Positions 7,295 to 14,684 of a stretch of 37,608 nt of DNA are shown in pieces. Location of the stretch: positions 1 through 37,608 of the IMG/VR virus record IMGVR_UViG_3300031957_003825, one strand, 5' to 3'. The notes beneath the pieces were generated by a model. The model was not told where the DNA came from. It was given only the letters and a program-made list of their open reading frames with translations, and ran no database searches. Numbering within the stretch: position 1 is the first letter of the stretch; every line of letters starts with the position of its first letter. The translations under genes were made by a program, and so were the position numbers. This DNA comes from a virus.

Positions 7295-7392
7295 CAGAAC
7301 CCCCATACGTTTGCGGCTTTGGTGATCGCGCCAGCCAGCCAGCCGAGCGCGATGAAGAACGAGAAGAAGTGGAAGAGGCTGGTCTTGCTCAT
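7294..7392 (-). CDS. 32-residue membrane microprotein
   Basis: Short frame lying 5 bases after the stop of the 110-residue gene and overlapping the next start as TGATG. It has a Phe-rich hydrophobic segment (FHFFSFFIALGWLAGAI) flanked by Lys residues, predicting one membrane helix. The filled gap and exact coupling support translation. Function unknown. Confidence 0.62.
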   Translation of the reverse strand: MSKTSLFHFFSFFIALGWLAGAITKAANVWGF

Positions 7393-7397
7393 GGGGA

Positions 7398-7730
7398 TCA
7401 CTCCGCAGCGATACGGTCGCGCCGCAGCTCCAGGAGGTAGTCGCCGTAGTCGCCGGCATCGGCCTCGGCGCGCTCGTCTGCCTCGCGAACCGCTGCGTCC
7501 TCCTGCGCCGCCTCTATGGCGTTAACTGCGTCTTCTCCGATGGCCTGAACCATCTGCTCGCGGGTGAGGGTCAGCGCGCCGATGCGCCACGATGTGATTT
7601 CGAGCCCGCTGATTGCCCAGCCACCGGGGAACCCGACGCTGCGGTCTTCGCGCTCATACTCGGCGCTGAAACCGATCACGCCCTCGGGGATCGGAAGCTC
7701 TTCCAGTTCGATGTGGATTTCGTAGCTCAT
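7398..7730 (-). CDS. First gene of leftward early operon (110 aa, unknown)
   Basis: Start chosen at MSYEIHIELEELPIP, preceded by AGGGAGA; the open frame extends upstream into the operator region, which would be implausible. The protein is acidic, with a beta-rich N-terminal part and a helical C-terminal part rich in Ala, Glu and Asp. In lambda this position holds regulators such as N, but no arginine-rich RNA-binding motif is visible here, so no such role is claimed. Confidence 0.8.
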   Translation of the reverse strand: MSYEIHIELEELPIPEGVIGFSAEYEREDRSVGFPGGWAISGLEITSWRIGALTLTREQMVQAIGEDAVNAIEAAQEDAAVREADERAEADAGDYGDYLLELRRDRIAAE

Positions 7731-7772
7731 GGCTGCATCTCTCCCTGTGCCGTGTTCGGCTGGTGTGAGATG

Positions 7773-7802
7773 AAGATAACTACGCAATATGCGTAGCGTC
7801 AA
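7773..7802 (-). promoter_or_regulatory. Leftward early promoter (pL-like)
   Basis: On the minus strand TTGACG (7802-7797) is followed after 18 bases by TATCTT (7778-7773), with a palindromic operator filling the spacer. It directs transcription into the recombination and integrase operon. The boxes are moderate matches to a sigma-70-type promoter. Confidence 0.7.
7780..7796. promoter_or_regulatory. Strong operator in the leftward promoter
   Basis: CTACGCA-ATA-TGCGTAG, a perfect palindrome with 7-bp arms, placed exactly between the -35 and -10 boxes. Its central 15 bases (TACGCAATATGCGTA) recur unchanged at 9083-9097 in the rightward promoter. Binding here by the repressor or Cro would block polymerase. 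Confidence 0.82.
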
Positions 7803-7811
7803 GATGAAAAA

Positions 7812-7826
7812 TAAACAAAGTGCGTA
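7812..7826. promoter_or_regulatory. Weak operator copy
   Basis: TAAACAAAGTGCGTA matches the strong operator at 11 of 15 positions, with the right half-site intact. It lies 31 bp from the strong site centre to centre, about three helical turns, which would suit cooperative dimer binding. Confidence 0.5.
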
Positions 7827-7883
7827 GTAGTCGATTTCTGCCTGCGCGACTCAGGGCGTCCAGCGCCCGGCTACTATCGGCAA

Positions 7884-7910
7884 CAAAAAGCCCCGCGCGA
7901 GGCGGGGCTA
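7884..7910 (-). terminator. Rho-independent terminator after the repressor-side genes
   Basis: Arms AGCCCCGC and GCGGGGCT (8 bp) around a 5-base loop. Read leftwards, the hairpin is followed by TTTTTG. It ends transcription of the secreted-protein gene before the leftward promoter. Confidence 0.85.
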
Positions 7911-7955
7911 GTTTGGGATAGGTTCCGGGTTCTTCTCACCCGGCGGGCATAACGA

Positions 7956-8315
7956 TCACCAGCAGCCGCTTGAGGTGCAGGTCGATGAGAACGAGTTGCC
8001 TTGAGCATCCATGCCGAAGGTGTTGCTCATGCCTGGCGTTCTGATCGTGGTCGAGTTCCACGAGTCGCCCGTGGCTGACCTGCCATAGGTTTGGGTGGTG
8101 TTCCCGTAGCTGTGGGAATCTTGAGACCAAGTAGAGCCGGTCTGGGAGTTGTAGCCCTGCACGCTCGTGGTGTTTCCATACCGCTGGACCGTGTAGGAGT
8201 TCCCGGATGCGTCGTTGCAGGTGTAGAAGCTACCCGATCCGATGCAGTTTGCCGACACCAATGAAGGCAGAGCGGCGAACGCCGCGATTAGGAAGAATTT
8301 GGCAGGAATATTCAT
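7956..8315 (-). CDS. Small secreted protein at the rex position (119 aa)
   Basis: The N-terminus has a clear Sec signal peptide: a Lys, the hydrophobic core FFLIAAFAALPSLV, then likely cleavage after VSA. The mature part is rich in Gly, Ser, Thr, Asn and Tyr with two copies of YGNTT, and has Cys residues near both ends (NCIGS, CTSSGCW) that could form disulfides in the periplasm. It follows the 70-residue gene by 29 bases and is followed by a strong terminator. Its place between repressor and leftward promoter is that of rexAB in lambda, so expression in the lysogen is likely. Function unknown; a conversion or exclusion role is inference. Confidence 0.8.
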   Translation of the reverse strand: MNIPAKFFLIAAFAALPSLVSANCIGSGSFYTCNDASGNSYTVQRYGNTTSVQGYNSQTGSTWSQDSHSYGNTTQTYGRSATGDSWNSTTIRTPGMSNTFGMDAQGNSFSSTCTSSGCW

Positions 8316-8344
8316 AACGCATTACCTTTTCTGGATCTGTCTCA

Positions 8345-8557
8345 TCATTTCCGCAAAGCCGCCGCGACCAAGCGCGCCAATCGCTGCATCTCCGCATCCT
8401 CGCCAGAGGCATCTGCCTCCAAGCTCCCGGCGATTTCCTCACGCGCAGCTGGGTCGGTCGCCAGCCCTTTCAGCATGCCAGAGATCATCCGAACGGCCGC
8501 GCTGCGCGTTGCCACAAGCTCCCGTTCAAGCGCGATGATCCTTTCGTCGGGCGTCAC
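8345..8557 (-). CDS. Helical protein downstream of repressor (70 aa)
   Basis: GTG start supported by AAGGAG eight bases upstream. The sequence is almost entirely helical and charged (ERIIALERELVATR, AEMQRLARLVAAALRK). It lies between the repressor gene and the secreted-protein gene on the same strand and probably shares their transcript. No family recognised. Confidence 0.72.
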   Translation of the reverse strand: MTPDERIIALERELVATRSAAVRMISGMLKGLATDPAAREEIAGSLEADASGEDAEMQRLARLVAAALRK

Positions 8558-8629
8558 GCTTCGGCTCCTTGACCGGTCCGGCGGTCGCAGGCTACCGTGA
8601 ACGTATGGGGAACGCTGGAGTTTTGATTT

Positions 8630-8818
8630 ATGGATTCTGTGGTGCGCAACGATGATGATCGGCTTCTTGAGCTTCTGAAGGAGGCTCGCGCAAAATCTGG
8701 CTTGCCGCTGGATTTCTGGGCTGATCTCACGGAAGGGCTTCCTTACAGCTCGGTTGCGATCCTGTGCGGCAGATCCGATTTGTTCCCGAAGTATATGAAC
8801 TCCAAGGGGATCGAATAG
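8630..8818 (+). CDS. Possible small gene convergent with the repressor (62 aa)
   Basis: ATG preceded by TGGAG about nine bases away. The frame fills the 185-base gap after the repressor and overlaps its 3' end by 76 bases on the opposite strand. The first half looks like a genuine helical protein (DDRLLELLKEARAKSGLPLDFW); the second half is constrained by the repressor on the other strand. A weak TTGACC box lies upstream. Could be chance. Confidence 0.4.
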   Translation: MDSVVRNDDDRLLELLKEARAKSGLPLDFWADLTEGLPYSSVAILCGRSDLFPKYMNSKGIE

Positions 8819-9018
8819 GCTTTCCGAAGCTTCTTGGCGACGGACAAGGGCAGGTCGCGCTTGCCGTTCTCATACTCGCCCCATGCCTGGGGAGACATGC
8901 CGAGCTTGTCGGAGAAGTCTTTCTTGTTCAGCCCGGACAATTCTCTGACACGGGTAAGGCGAGCGCACACGGCCTCCCTCGCGTCTTCCTGATCTTCAAG
9001 CACAGCTAACCCCATCAT
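8743..9018 (-). CDS. XRE-family phage repressor (short CI type)
   Basis: 91-residue protein consisting almost only of an HTH domain: ARLTRVRELSGLNKKDFSDKLGMS (19-42), with the recognition helix about SPQAWGEYENGKR (42-54). There is no C-terminal S24 protease or dimerisation domain as in lambda CI, so RecA-triggered self-cleavage is not expected. It is read leftwards, divergent from the Cro-like gene, and probably binds the TACGCAATATGCGTA operators. Start at the double ATG (9018 or 9015); the longer frame would run through the promoter region. Confidence 0.85.
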   Translation of the reverse strand: MMGLAVLEDQEDAREAVCARLTRVRELSGLNKKDFSDKLGMSPQAWGEYENGKRDLPLSVAKKLRKAYSIPLEFIYFGNKSDLPHRIATEL

Positions 9019-9034
9019 TTTGGGGATAATCCTA

Positions 9035-9064
9035 AATAAACATCCTGCGAACCGCAGTGAACAA
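9035..9064 (-). promoter_or_regulatory. Candidate repressor promoter (pRM-like)
   Basis: On the minus strand TTGTTC (9064-9059) and TTTATT (9040-9035) are separated by 18 bases. Both boxes are weak matches. The -35 overlaps the weak operator at 9058-9072, which would allow the repressor to control its own gene. The leader would be only about ten bases. Confidence 0.4.
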
Positions 9065-9072
9065 TGTGCGTA
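9058..9072. promoter_or_regulatory. Weak operator copy near repressor promoter
   Basis: TGAACAATGTGCGTA agrees with the strong operator at 11 of 15 positions and keeps the right half-site. It lies 25 bp from the strong site centre to centre. Confidence 0.5.
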
Positions 9073-9101
9073 TTGACCGCGATACGCAATATGCGTAGTG
9101 T
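9073..9101 (+). promoter_or_regulatory. Rightward early promoter (pR-like)
   Basis: TTGACC (9073-9078) and a weak -10 TAGTGT (9096-9101) with a 17-base spacer. The strong operator lies over the spacer and the edge of the -10. Predicted start of transcription is at or within a base or two of the ATG at 9108, so the Cro-like mRNA would be leaderless. Confidence 0.6.
9083..9097. promoter_or_regulatory. Strong operator in the rightward promoter
   Basis: TACGCAATATGCGTA is identical to the core of the operator at 7780-7796 and likewise lies between -35 and -10. Two identical palindromes 1.3 kb apart, each in a divergent early promoter, are strong evidence of shared repression. Confidence 0.82.
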
Positions 9102-9107
9102 TGTGGC

Positions 9108-9362
9108 ATGGAGCACATCGCGCATATCTGGCCGACCATGGCCGACTTGGCTGCCGATCTTGGCAAGCCCTACTCGACGGTCGCCGCTTGGAAGCAACGC
9201 GGCAGCATTCCGGCGAAGTATGACCTTCCCCTGATCCGGGCCGCACGGGCTCGGGGCAAGGATCTCACGTTGGAGGTTCTTGCAGAGGCGCGCACTGATG
9301 CCGCCGACGCGCCTTCGCATGCCGTTCATGAGCGTTCTCCGGGTGAAGGGGTGGCTGGCTGA
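9108..9362 (+). CDS. Cro-like HTH regulator
   Basis: 84-residue protein with a YdaS/carph-isopro-like helix-turn-helix: HIWPTMADLAADLGKPYSTVAAWKQRG (6-32), followed by SIPAKYDLPLIRAARARG. It is divergent from the repressor and is the first gene of the rightward operon, the position of Cro. It is expected to bind the shared operators and switch the phage toward lytic growth. No Shine-Dalgarno sequence precedes the ATG. Confidence 0.82.
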   Translation: MEHIAHIWPTMADLAADLGKPYSTVAAWKQRGSIPAKYDLPLIRAARARGKDLTLEVLAEARTDAADAPSHAVHERSPGEGVAG

Positions 9363-9468
9363 TGTTCGCTTGCCCACACACAGGACGTTTGCGCTGCATC
9401 GCGGCGTTTCAAGCCTCGGTTGAGATTTTCCCGCGTTCTTCGCGCTTTGTTCGCAACAGGGGGCGGGG

Positions 9469-9900
9469 ATGAACAGCTGTAGACACTTCCAAGGCCTCTT
9501 CTCGGATTCCCGGCCATCGTGCGCCAAGGGTCGCGACGTAAGGGCGTGGGCGAGGCGATGCAACGGGGGTTCTGACTTCGGAATTGCCCTGCGCCTGCCT
9601 TGCACAAAGAAAATCTCCGACGAGACCCCTCTGTTCGATTGTCCCGAGCTGGACAGGAAGACGGATGAGGAAATCGAGGCGGAGCGGGCCGCGCTGCGGG
9701 TGCATATGGATCGCTTCGTAGCGGGACTATCAGCCATCAATGAAATGCGCCGGAAGATGGTAGCGCACAAGCTGTCCAGCGCCAAGGCCACGTGCCCGTG
9801 GTGCGGGGTCAAGGATGCTCTGCAAGTCGGGTGCGCCATCGGGGCCAACAACCACATGAGGGCTCACTGCACCTCCTGTGGGGAGGGGTTCATCGAATGA
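9469..9900 (+). CDS. Phage zinc-binding protein (143 aa)
   Basis: The N-terminal part starts with CRHFQGLF, then Cys in RPSCAKG, a further Cys and RLPCTKK, a pattern common in small phage proteins with spaced cysteines. The middle is a helical region (DRKTDEEIEAERAAL). The C-terminal part carries CPWC (about 109-112) and CTSC, a second zinc ribbon. GGGGG lies a few bases before the ATG. Function unknown; nucleic-acid binding is plausible. Confidence 0.75.
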   Translation: MNSCRHFQGLFSDSRPSCAKGRDVRAWARRCNGGSDFGIALRLPCTKKISDETPLFDCPELDRKTDEEIEAERAALRVHMDRFVAGLSAINEMRRKMVAHKLSSAKATCPWCGVKDALQVGCAIGANNHMRAHCTSCGEGFIE

Positions 9901-10378: not shown

Positions 10379-10819
10379 ATGGGTAAGACCTCGAAAATCA
10401 CCGCGGAAACGCTTGCCCCCATCTGGGCCAATCGCAGCATCCCGACGAAGAAGGTTGCCGACATGCTCGGGATCGATCGCTCCACGCTGAGCTGGAAGCG
10501 GGCGGAGCTTGGTATAGCCCCGCGCGTCACCGGCATCGTTCCGAAGGCAAACGAGGACACTTTTCGCCGCATGTGGCTGGCCGGTGTGAACGTGCGCGAG
10601 ATGGTCGAGTTCTTCGGCTACCGGCACAAGCAATCCATTCACAAGCGCCGAGACCGCCTTGGCCTATCCCCGCGCCCTGTGGGTTCTAAAGGCAAGAGCA
10701 TCACCCTGGCACAATTCCGAGAGCAGGAAATCGCCCGCCGCATGTCGGCGCAGGCTGGCGGGAAGAGGATCCACGCAGCCGGTGGCGAGGACCGCTCGAA
10801 GATGTGGAGGGATGCATGA
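10379..10819 (+). CDS. HTH DNA-binding protein (146 aa)
   Basis: Residues 5-45 (ITAETLAPIWANRSIPTKKVADMLGIDRSTLSWKR, given in part) form a helix-turn-helix, with TKKVADMLGIDRSTLSWK the likely recognition element. A second HTH-like unit lies near residues 60-95 (VREMVEFFGYRHKQSIHKRR). The C-terminal tail is basic. The gene has an AGGGC site before its ATG and couples to the PP-loop gene. It may be a regulator of the rightward operon. Confidence 0.78.
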   Translation: MGKTSKITAETLAPIWANRSIPTKKVADMLGIDRSTLSWKRAELGIAPRVTGIVPKANEDTFRRMWLAGVNVREMVEFFGYRHKQSIHKRRDRLGLSPRPVGSKGKSITLAQFREQEIARRMSAQAGGKRIHAAGGEDRSKMWRDA

Positions 10820-11661
10820 GCCCCTACACCCTACCGGATGGAAACGTTCAGATCAGCTTCTCCGGAGGACGGACGAGCGGGTACATGCTTCACCAGATCG
10901 CGGAGGCGAACGGCGGCATCCCTGAGCGGGCCAAAGTCGTTTTTGCGAACACAGGGCGCGAGATGCCAGAGACGTTGGACTTCGTTCAACAGTGCTCTGA
11001 TCGATGGTCTATCCCTATCACTTGGGTGGAGTACCGACGCCGGGTGGACCCTCGCGAGCGCTTCGAGGTTGTGTCGCACAATAGCGCCAGCCGGAATGGT
11101 GAGCCGTTCGAGGCCCTGATCCGCAAGAAGCAGTATCTGCCAAATCAACAGACGAGATTCTGCACCTCGGAACTGAAGGTGCGCCCAGCAAAAGAGTTCC
11201 TGGTTTCTGAGGGTTGGGGCAATTGGATTTCGGCTCTTGGCATCCGCGCAGACGAACCGAAGCGCGTCAATCGTGAGCCCCAGAAGGAGCGGTGGCAGCG
11301 TTGGTATCCCTTGGCTGATGCGAACGTGTCCCGCCATGACGTTGCACTGTTCTGGCGTAGGCAGGACTTCGATCTTCGGCTCTTCGCTGTGAATGGGAAC
11401 ACCGCGCTCGGAAACTGCGATGGGTGTTTCCTAAAGAGCGAAGCGCACCTGTCCATGATCGCGCGGGACTACCCTGAGCGTCATCAGTGGTGGGAAGACA
11501 TGGAGATGATGACCTCCGACTGGACGCTCGGTAACGGGGCTCGGTTTTCCAAACGTTACAGCCGCAGGGAGATACGCTTCTTCGTGGAGGCTCAAGGCGA
11601 CTGGATTTTCGAAACAGAGGACGCGCTATGCCAAGCCAATGGTGGGGAGTGTTTCGCATGA
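10816..11661 (+). CDS. PAPS-reductase-like PP-loop protein
   Basis: 281-residue member of the adenine-nucleotide alpha-hydrolase superfamily related to phosphoadenosine phosphosulfate reductase. The PP-loop SGGRTS is at 16-21; FANTGREMPETLDF at 43-56 fits the following strand and helix. Cys116 lies in RFCTSELK, the motif resembling the family's C-x-x-x-L-K signature. Extra cysteines at 201 and 204 (CDGC), 272 and 279 could hold a metal or iron-sulfur cluster. Phage members are common, and their true substrate, whether sulfur metabolism or nucleic-acid modification (compare DndC), is mostly unknown. The start is in an ATGA overlap with the HTH gene. Confidence 0.82.
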   Translation: MSPYTLPDGNVQISFSGGRTSGYMLHQIAEANGGIPERAKVVFANTGREMPETLDFVQQCSDRWSIPITWVEYRRRVDPRERFEVVSHNSASRNGEPFEALIRKKQYLPNQQTRFCTSELKVRPAKEFLVSEGWGNWISALGIRADEPKRVNREPQKERWQRWYPLADANVSRHDVALFWRRQDFDLRLFAVNGNTALGNCDGCFLKSEAHLSMIARDYPERHQWWEDMEMMTSDWTLGNGARFSKRYSRREIRFFVEAQGDWIFETEDALCQANGGECFA

Positions 11662-13902: not shown

Positions 13903-14684
13903 GTGTATCGGTCACATCGGCCGCGGTCGCGGCATCGATCTCTACCGGGGTGACGAGGCTTGTCTTGCTCTGCCTATGCGACAAGGCGGGTGATCATGGC
14001 GTGGCGTGGCCCGCTGTTTCTACGATCTGCGAGTGGACGAATTCCAGCGAACGGGCCGTGCAAAAGGCCCTCAAGCAGCTGGTCGAAATGGGCGAGATCA
14101 AGCTCCTTGAGGCCGGCGGCGGGCGCAACAAGCCGTCTCGATATCTTGTGTCTGTGGGCCTCGAAGACACAAATACCCCGCAGGAAAAACACCGTAAACC
14201 GTGCGGGGTATCGAACGAAAACCCCGCAGGAAAAACACCGTATTCCGCGAAAACCCCGCAAAATCGGTCGGAAAACCCCGCAGAATGTGCACCCAACCCA
14301 TCAATAAACAGCAGTAGCAGTGCGCGCGAGGCGCGGTCGGACGACGAACTCTACGACGAGGTTCTCTCGGCAGCCGGAATCAGAAACGGCTCGATGCCAA
14401 CCTACTGGATGCCACCAGCAGCGGTGATCCACGTCGGCCGGTGGAGATCGCAGCTTGGGCTGACTGACGCCGAGATCATCTCGACCGTCCGGGAATGCCG
14501 GAAGCGCCACGATAACCCGCCGAACGGGCCGAAGGGTCTCGACAGCGCCATGCAGCGCACCGCTGGGGCGAAGGTGACCGAGCTGAAGCCTCGCACCCCT
14601 TCTCAGCACGGCAAGCCCGATGAGAAATCGAAGCGCATGGCCTTCTACGCATCCATCACCGACAGAGCCGGAGCCACCCAATGA
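13899..14684 (+). CDS. O-like replication protein with winged HTH
   Basis: 261-residue protein. Residues 20-85 form a helix-turn-helix of the HTH_36 kind (VAWPAVSTICEWTNSSERAV). Residues 92-128 are a low-complexity linker encoded by the iteron-like repeats. The C-terminal 110 residues are a separate helical domain of the sort that contacts a helicase or loader. The gene layout, a DNA-binding N-domain with the origin inside the gene next to a helicase gene, is that of lambda O. Initiator function is a reasoned inference. Confidence 0.75.
   Translation: MSVSVTSAAVAASISTGVTRLVLLCLCDKAGDHGVAWPAVSTICEWTNSSERAVQKALKQLVEMGEIKLLEAGGGRNKPSRYLVSVGLEDTNTPQEKHRKPCGVSNENPAGKTPYSAKTPQNRSENPAECAPNPSINSSSSAREARSDDELYDEVLSAAGIRNGSMPTYWMPPAAVIHVGRWRSQLGLTDAEIISTVRECRKRHDNPPNGPKGLDSAMQRTAGAKVTELKPRTPSQHGKPDEKSKRMAFYASITDRAGATQ
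14174..14282. repeat. Iteron-like repeats, probable replication origin
   Basis: ACCCCGCA occurs at 14175, 14221, 14253 and 14275. GAAAACCCCGCA is exact at 14217, 14249 and 14271. A perfect 22-base direct repeat occupies 14175-14196 and 14221-14242. A 9-bp inverted repeat TACCCCGCA / TGCGGGGTA spans 14174-14210. The array has more A runs than its surroundings and lies in the linker-coding part of the O-like gene. Confidence 0.7.

Follow-up and report, generated by a model that had tools for sequence, protein, structure and literature searches.

A predicted SOS-controlled small gene lies antisense to the repressor gene in the lambda-like immunity region of a temperate Rhodobacteraceae phage

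Results

Gene content of the immunity region

The window analysed here, a stretch of 37,608 nucleotides of viral DNA (IMG/VR record IMGVR_UViG_3300031957_003825), contains the immunity region of a temperate Rhodobacteraceae phage with a lambdoid gene order. To the left of this region lie the genes for an integrase (1-1008), an HNH protein and a RecE-like exonuclease, while those for a DnaB-like helicase, an O-like protein, a terminase, a portal and a major head protein lie to its right. The rightward early operon also carries a phosphoadenosine phosphosulfate reductase-like gene (10804-11661), and the O-like replication initiator gene contains a 22-bp exact direct repeat, ACCCCGCAGGAAAAACACCGTA, at 14175 and 14221 (46 bp apart); these repeats are possible iterons of a phage origin. 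The features of the immunity region are collected in Table 1.

Table 1. Features of the immunity region, in window coordinates (strand given where assigned)
Feature	Positions	Strand	Description or basis
First gene of leftward early operon	7398-7730	-	110 aa, no known family; downstream of PL
PL-like leftward promoter	7773-7802	-	TTGACG (7802-7797)-18-TATCTT (7778-7773); promoter scan
OL1	7781-7795		Strong, TACGCA-ATA-TGCGTA; matrix and exact repeat
OL2	7812-7826		Weaker, TAAACAAAGTGCGTA, 11/15; 16.6 bits; 31 bp from OL1
Intrinsic terminator	7889-7909	-	8-pair G+C-rich stem and T run; terminator scan
Cargo gene 1	7956-8315	-	119 aa, apparent signal peptide, no known family; between repressor and OL
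Cargo gene 2	8345-8557	-	70 aa, no known family
ORF promoter	8569-8598	+	TTGACC-18-TACCGT; by eye
LexA (SOS) box	8599-8613	+	GAAC-GTATGGG-GAAC; alphaproteobacterial motif GAAC-N7-GAAC
62-aa ORF, candidate antirepressor	8630-8818	+	Shine-Dalgarno GGAG at 8617-8620
Repressor	8743-9018	-	91 aa, XRE/HTH_3; Pfam HTH_3 E=1.8e-9
OR3	9037-9051		Weak, TAAACATCCTGCGAA; 12.7 bits; just upstream of repressor start codon
OR2	9058-9072		Weaker, TGAACAATGTGCGTA, 11/15; 12.3 bits; 25 bp from OR1
PR-like rightward promoter	9074-9101	+	TTGACC (9074-9079)-16-TAGTGT (9096-9101); by eye
OR1	9083-9097		Strong, TACGCA-ATA-TGCGTA; matrix and exact repeat
Cro-like DNA-binding protein	9108-9362	+	84 aa, first gene of rightward operon; position, orientation, HTH

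Between the two groups of operators lie, as the initial annotation had described, the repressor gene and two further genes, together with a fourth ORF that it had missed. The first three are leftward; the fourth ORF is the one which runs rightward and is convergent with the repressor gene. The leftward transcript of the repressor and the two cargo genes is closed ahead of OL by the intrinsic terminator (7909-7889). The same scan also flagged a small hairpin on the minus strand at 9057-9045. Zero rightward terminators were found in the scan of 7300-9500, so none lies between 8818 and OR1.

Neither cargo gene has a match in Pfam or PHROGs, hence no rexA or rexB homologue was recognised. A relative of the second is readable in the nearest locus (L004/L126), and in other relatives the cargo position is occupied by other genes or is empty. 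The product of the first is rich in Ser, Thr and Gly and looks secreted; this gene is possibly a conversion or exclusion gene.

The repressor consists of a helix-turn-helix domain, and neither Pfam nor the AlphaFold2 model (pLDDT 83.7) contains a protease or dimerisation domain, which makes self-cleavage of the lambda type very unlikely. The core of the model resembles the N-terminal domains of the 434, P22 and lambda repressors.

One operator at both early promoters

The 15-bp sequence TACGCAATATGCGTA, reported earlier as an unchanged repeat, occurs exactly at 7781-7795 and 9083-9097, and no other site within three mismatches exists in the whole window (0.33 matches are expected in shuffles). 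By itself such a repeat is weak evidence, as the window holds 20 repeated 15-mers, overlapping ones counted. Among the 11 perfect 6-3-6 palindromes of the window, however, only the pair at 7781 and 9083 has the same arms. We therefore scanned the 37.6 kb with a half-site matrix derived from OL1 and OR1 in 19 relatives, the window itself being excluded. Exactly five sites emerged: the two strong ones at 23.1 bits each, 7812 at 16.6, 9037 at 12.7 and 9058 at 12.3, with the next best at only 4.6 bits. Thus the two weaker 11/15 copies proposed previously are real, a third weak site at OR (OR3) had been missed, and the many equal copies elsewhere that would have spoken against an operator are absent. 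The scan detects three operators at OR and two at OL, and OR3 has counterparts in loci L126, L130, L135, L138 and L142.

At the left end, OL1 occupies the spacer of the PL-like promoter, exactly as had been claimed; at the right end the claim holds nearly, since OR1 shares two bases with the -10 element TAGTGT of the PR-like promoter, for which the promoter scanner made no call. A divergent arrangement, as described earlier, is seen at the right end only. The Cro-like protein has a sub-threshold match to the Phage_CI_repr HTH (E=0.002). Its ATG is located at the expected transcription start, so its mRNA is probably leaderless; the gap between OR1 and the start codon of the rightward gene is about 8-13 nt in nearly all core loci, which suggests that a leaderless mRNA to the right of OR may be conserved among the core relatives.

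Operators change together with the repressor

We collected related loci through the convergent ORF, through the repressor, from phage records and from Rhodobacteraceae genomes. An operator of the window's 6-3-6 kind is present at both ends in 26 of 26 core loci, with OL1 and OL2 always 30-31 bp apart and OR1 and OR2 24-25 bp apart in 17 of the 26. The distance from OL1 to the repressor stop ranges from about 215 to 2567 bp leftward, because the cargo in between varies. Within the core operators the half-sites hold while the middle three bases drift. The full 15-mer was rejected as a marker of the family: at least 120 stretches of viral contigs match it exactly, too many and too scattered.

Changes in the half-site follow the recognition helix of the repressor. 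Where position 45 is V or G (L128, L137, L149, L193; L134, L140), base 3 of OR1 is A and the half-site reads TAAGCA or TAAACA; where it is A, S or T, base 3 is C. In addition, nine distant loci encode another XRE repressor; there, too, both ends carry a 6-3-6 operator, whose half-sites have other letters (CTCACA, GCCAAG, GCTAAG, GACAAG). An operator that changes along with the repressor would make little sense if the two ends were not repressor binding sites, and from this covariation we infer that they are. In six loci (L128, L131, L134, L137, L145, L149) the gene to the right of OR1 is unlike the window's Cro-like gene (MEHIxHIWP), with operators and repressor still of the window's family; the Cro position seems to have been swapped there.

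A conserved ORF overlaps the 3' end of the repressor gene

The convergent ORF shares 76 bp with the 3' end of the repressor gene (8743-8818). Each of the 35 core loci examined, 29 of them distinct, has the ORF with exactly this overlap, among them all seven new loci retrieved by searching with the repressor. Outside the overlap the ORF has zero stops and a pN/pS of 0.29 (28 codons, 21 distinct sequences), and the other frames there range from about 0.9 to 2.3, the antisense frame excepted. On this comparison of codons, purifying selection acts on the ORF beyond the overlap. Inside the 76 bp the wobble positions of both genes coincide, and selection on one is not separable from selection on the other. 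The excepted frame, on the minus strand opposite the ORF, was rejected as a gene: it is stop-free with a pN/pS of 0.43, but this is explained by wobble positions that fall together on the two strands and by an ORF stretch almost devoid of Tyr, His and Gln. Shine-Dalgarno-like sequences are found upstream of the ORF in many loci. In distant relatives of the ORF (30-40% identity) the overlapping partner is a different XRE gene and the shared stretch mostly measures 130-172 bp, yet the ORF motif is kept.

The ORF family has no match in Pfam, PHROGs or NCBIfam, and no known antirepressor is homologous to it. AlphaFold2 predicts a small three-helix protein with moderate confidence (pLDDT 73.8, pTM 0.53), a fold search with this model matched no solved structure, and no membrane segment is apparent. 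When the ORF profile was run against 385 alphaproteobacterial genomes, the centre genome was the only match, so within this sample the family looks confined to Rhodobacteraceae. The literature outside subscription journals gave no account of such a module in Rhodobacteraceae. In the record of phage Pan4 (L003, ON968455.1) the ORF is unannotated; it has probably been overlooked since it is antisense to an annotated gene and gene callers skip such frames. This record is named 'Pseudanabaena phage Pan4', and its immunity region, its alphaproteobacterial-type LexA box and its antisense ORF match those of Rhodobacteraceae phages; the cyanobacterial host given for it is doubtful.

A LexA box precedes the ORF

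The LexA box lies directly behind the likely -10 of the ORF promoter and 16 bp ahead of the ORF start codon. A similar TTGAC element and a -10 stand ahead of the box in L126, L127, L129, L130 and L174. The alphaproteobacterial LexA site has been described as GTTC-N7-GTTC (PMC3323433; PMC8565304), which is the box of the window read on the other strand, and the same box precedes recA, at -70 to -79 from its start, in 10 of the 10 host genomes reached.

The box is present in 25 of 41 distinct loci (17/27 core, 1/2 further and 7/12 distant), against about 0.3 expected from the background rate (P about 1e-42, shared ancestry ignored). In 16 of 26 core loci it lies at -125 to -152 from the repressor stop. 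It is found in both orientations, which differ by clade, with at least five state changes on the tree. The exact box is absent near the ORF in 10 of the 27 distinct core loci, mostly of the Leisingera/Ruegeria/Epibacterium group, although the ORF is kept. SOS control is thus not universal, and in these loci control must be of another kind or rely on a degenerate LexA site.

Discussion

Our analysis supports well the view, first put forward in the initial annotation, that this locus is a lambda-like immunity region with two operator ends and one operator serving both early promoters, an arrangement that is conserved in every relative examined and comes with a lambdoid gene order. As in lambda, P22 and 434 (OL-cI-OR-cro), operators are shared by two early promoters, the repressor lies between them and a Cro-like gene diverges from it, OR has three sites, a terminator precedes OL, and cargo is placed between OL and the repressor. 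Unlike in those phages, the operator is a 15-bp 6-3-6 sequence with two sites detected at OL, the repressor is a single-domain protein, and a convergent gene with an SOS box overlaps it. The further statement that the locus is built exactly as cI-rex does not stand: instead of the two-domain repressor of lambda, whose self-cleavage is stimulated by RecA, there is a bare 91-residue HTH protein, and the cargo belongs to no known family and is replaced or absent in relatives.

The SOS-box gene antisense to the repressor is the most interesting part of the region, and its addition makes this a known kind of switch in a new variation. In a lysogen, the repressor would occupy OL1 and OL2 at PL and OR1, OR2 and OR3 at PR, silencing both early operons, and in the lytic phase the Cro-like protein would probably act on the same sites. 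Since the repressor carries no self-cleavage domain, the signal of DNA damage must arrive in some other way, most likely through the 62-aa ORF. With a host LexA box at its promoter, the ORF would be switched on by the RecA-driven loss of LexA, and its product would then bind and inactivate the repressor. The ORF transcript, being antisense to the last 76 bp of the repressor gene, would also oppose repressor expression; antisense and read-through effects may plausibly add to the action of the protein, as the scan of the region yielded no rightward terminator. In our judgement, with a probability of roughly 0.65, the locus is best explained by an SOS-induced antirepressor whose gene lies within the immunity region and antisense to the repressor gene.

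We could also speculate that the SOS-induced transcript acts as RNA, with the protein being secondary. By serving as antisense to the repressor mRNA, by convergent transcription and by read-through over OR into the Cro-like gene, it would bring repressor levels down and set off the lytic operon. The position of the ORF end, 76 bp into the repressor gene on the opposite strand, and the empty rightward terminator scan up to OR1 would suit such a mechanism. However, the N-terminal half of the ORF, beyond the overlap, is conserved as a protein, Shine-Dalgarno-like sequences precede the ORF in many loci, and the distant relatives vary the length of the overlap yet keep the ORF motif, all of which makes this explanation unlikely. 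Still less probable is that the target of the small protein is the host, through division arrest or shut-off for instance, rather than the repressor. SOS-induced small host inhibitors do exist in alphaproteobacteria, but a host target sits poorly with the strict linkage of ORF and repressor in all loci, which is kept even with quite different XRE repressors, and the protein has no apparent membrane segment. Finally, a plain cI-rex region of the lambda type with the convergent ORF as a chance antisense frame, while agreeing with the operator layout, the terminator and the gene order, is very improbable, given an ORF that is conserved well past the overlap (the pN/pS analysis there already largely refutes a chance frame), comes with a LexA box and accompanies the repressor at each locus, and a repressor that lacks a cleavage domain.

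An SOS-induced antirepressor would have partial precedents. The OOP RNA of lambda is LexA-regulated and antisense to cII. The transcript proposed here would likewise be LexA-regulated and run against the 3' end of a lysogeny gene, but it contains a protein-coding ORF that is conserved, and the gene opposite it is that of the repressor rather than cII. LexA-controlled antirepressors that act on non-cleaved repressors are established for the Gifsy phages (GfoA/GftA), 186 (Tum) and N15 (AntC) (PMC3121763). The locus shares with these phages a small repressor that does not cleave itself and a small LexA-controlled protein, here the presumed inducer. In Gifsy, the antirepressor gene sits outside the immunity region (PMC3121763), in contrast to the gene described here, which lies inside it, on the strand opposite the 3' end of the repressor gene, and matches no protein family. 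In the TF-smORF modules a phage transcription factor drives expression independently of SOS (PMC10432266), whereas here a LexA box precedes the ORF.

The convergent overlap persists in Rhodobacteraceae prophages whose operator sequences are unrelated. It is tempting to speculate, at somewhat less than even odds, that these genes form an antirepressor family that shares the 3' end of its target gene, in which protein binding and antisense or convergent transcription would act together in induction, and in which neither C-terminus would be free to change alone.

If the proposed role is true, the ORF would represent a previously undescribed family of prophage antirepressors. As the 91-aa repressor would not be cleavable in the way of lambda CI, the locus offers a concrete and testable route from the host SOS response to lysis, whose operators, promoter and presumed inducer are all mapped here.
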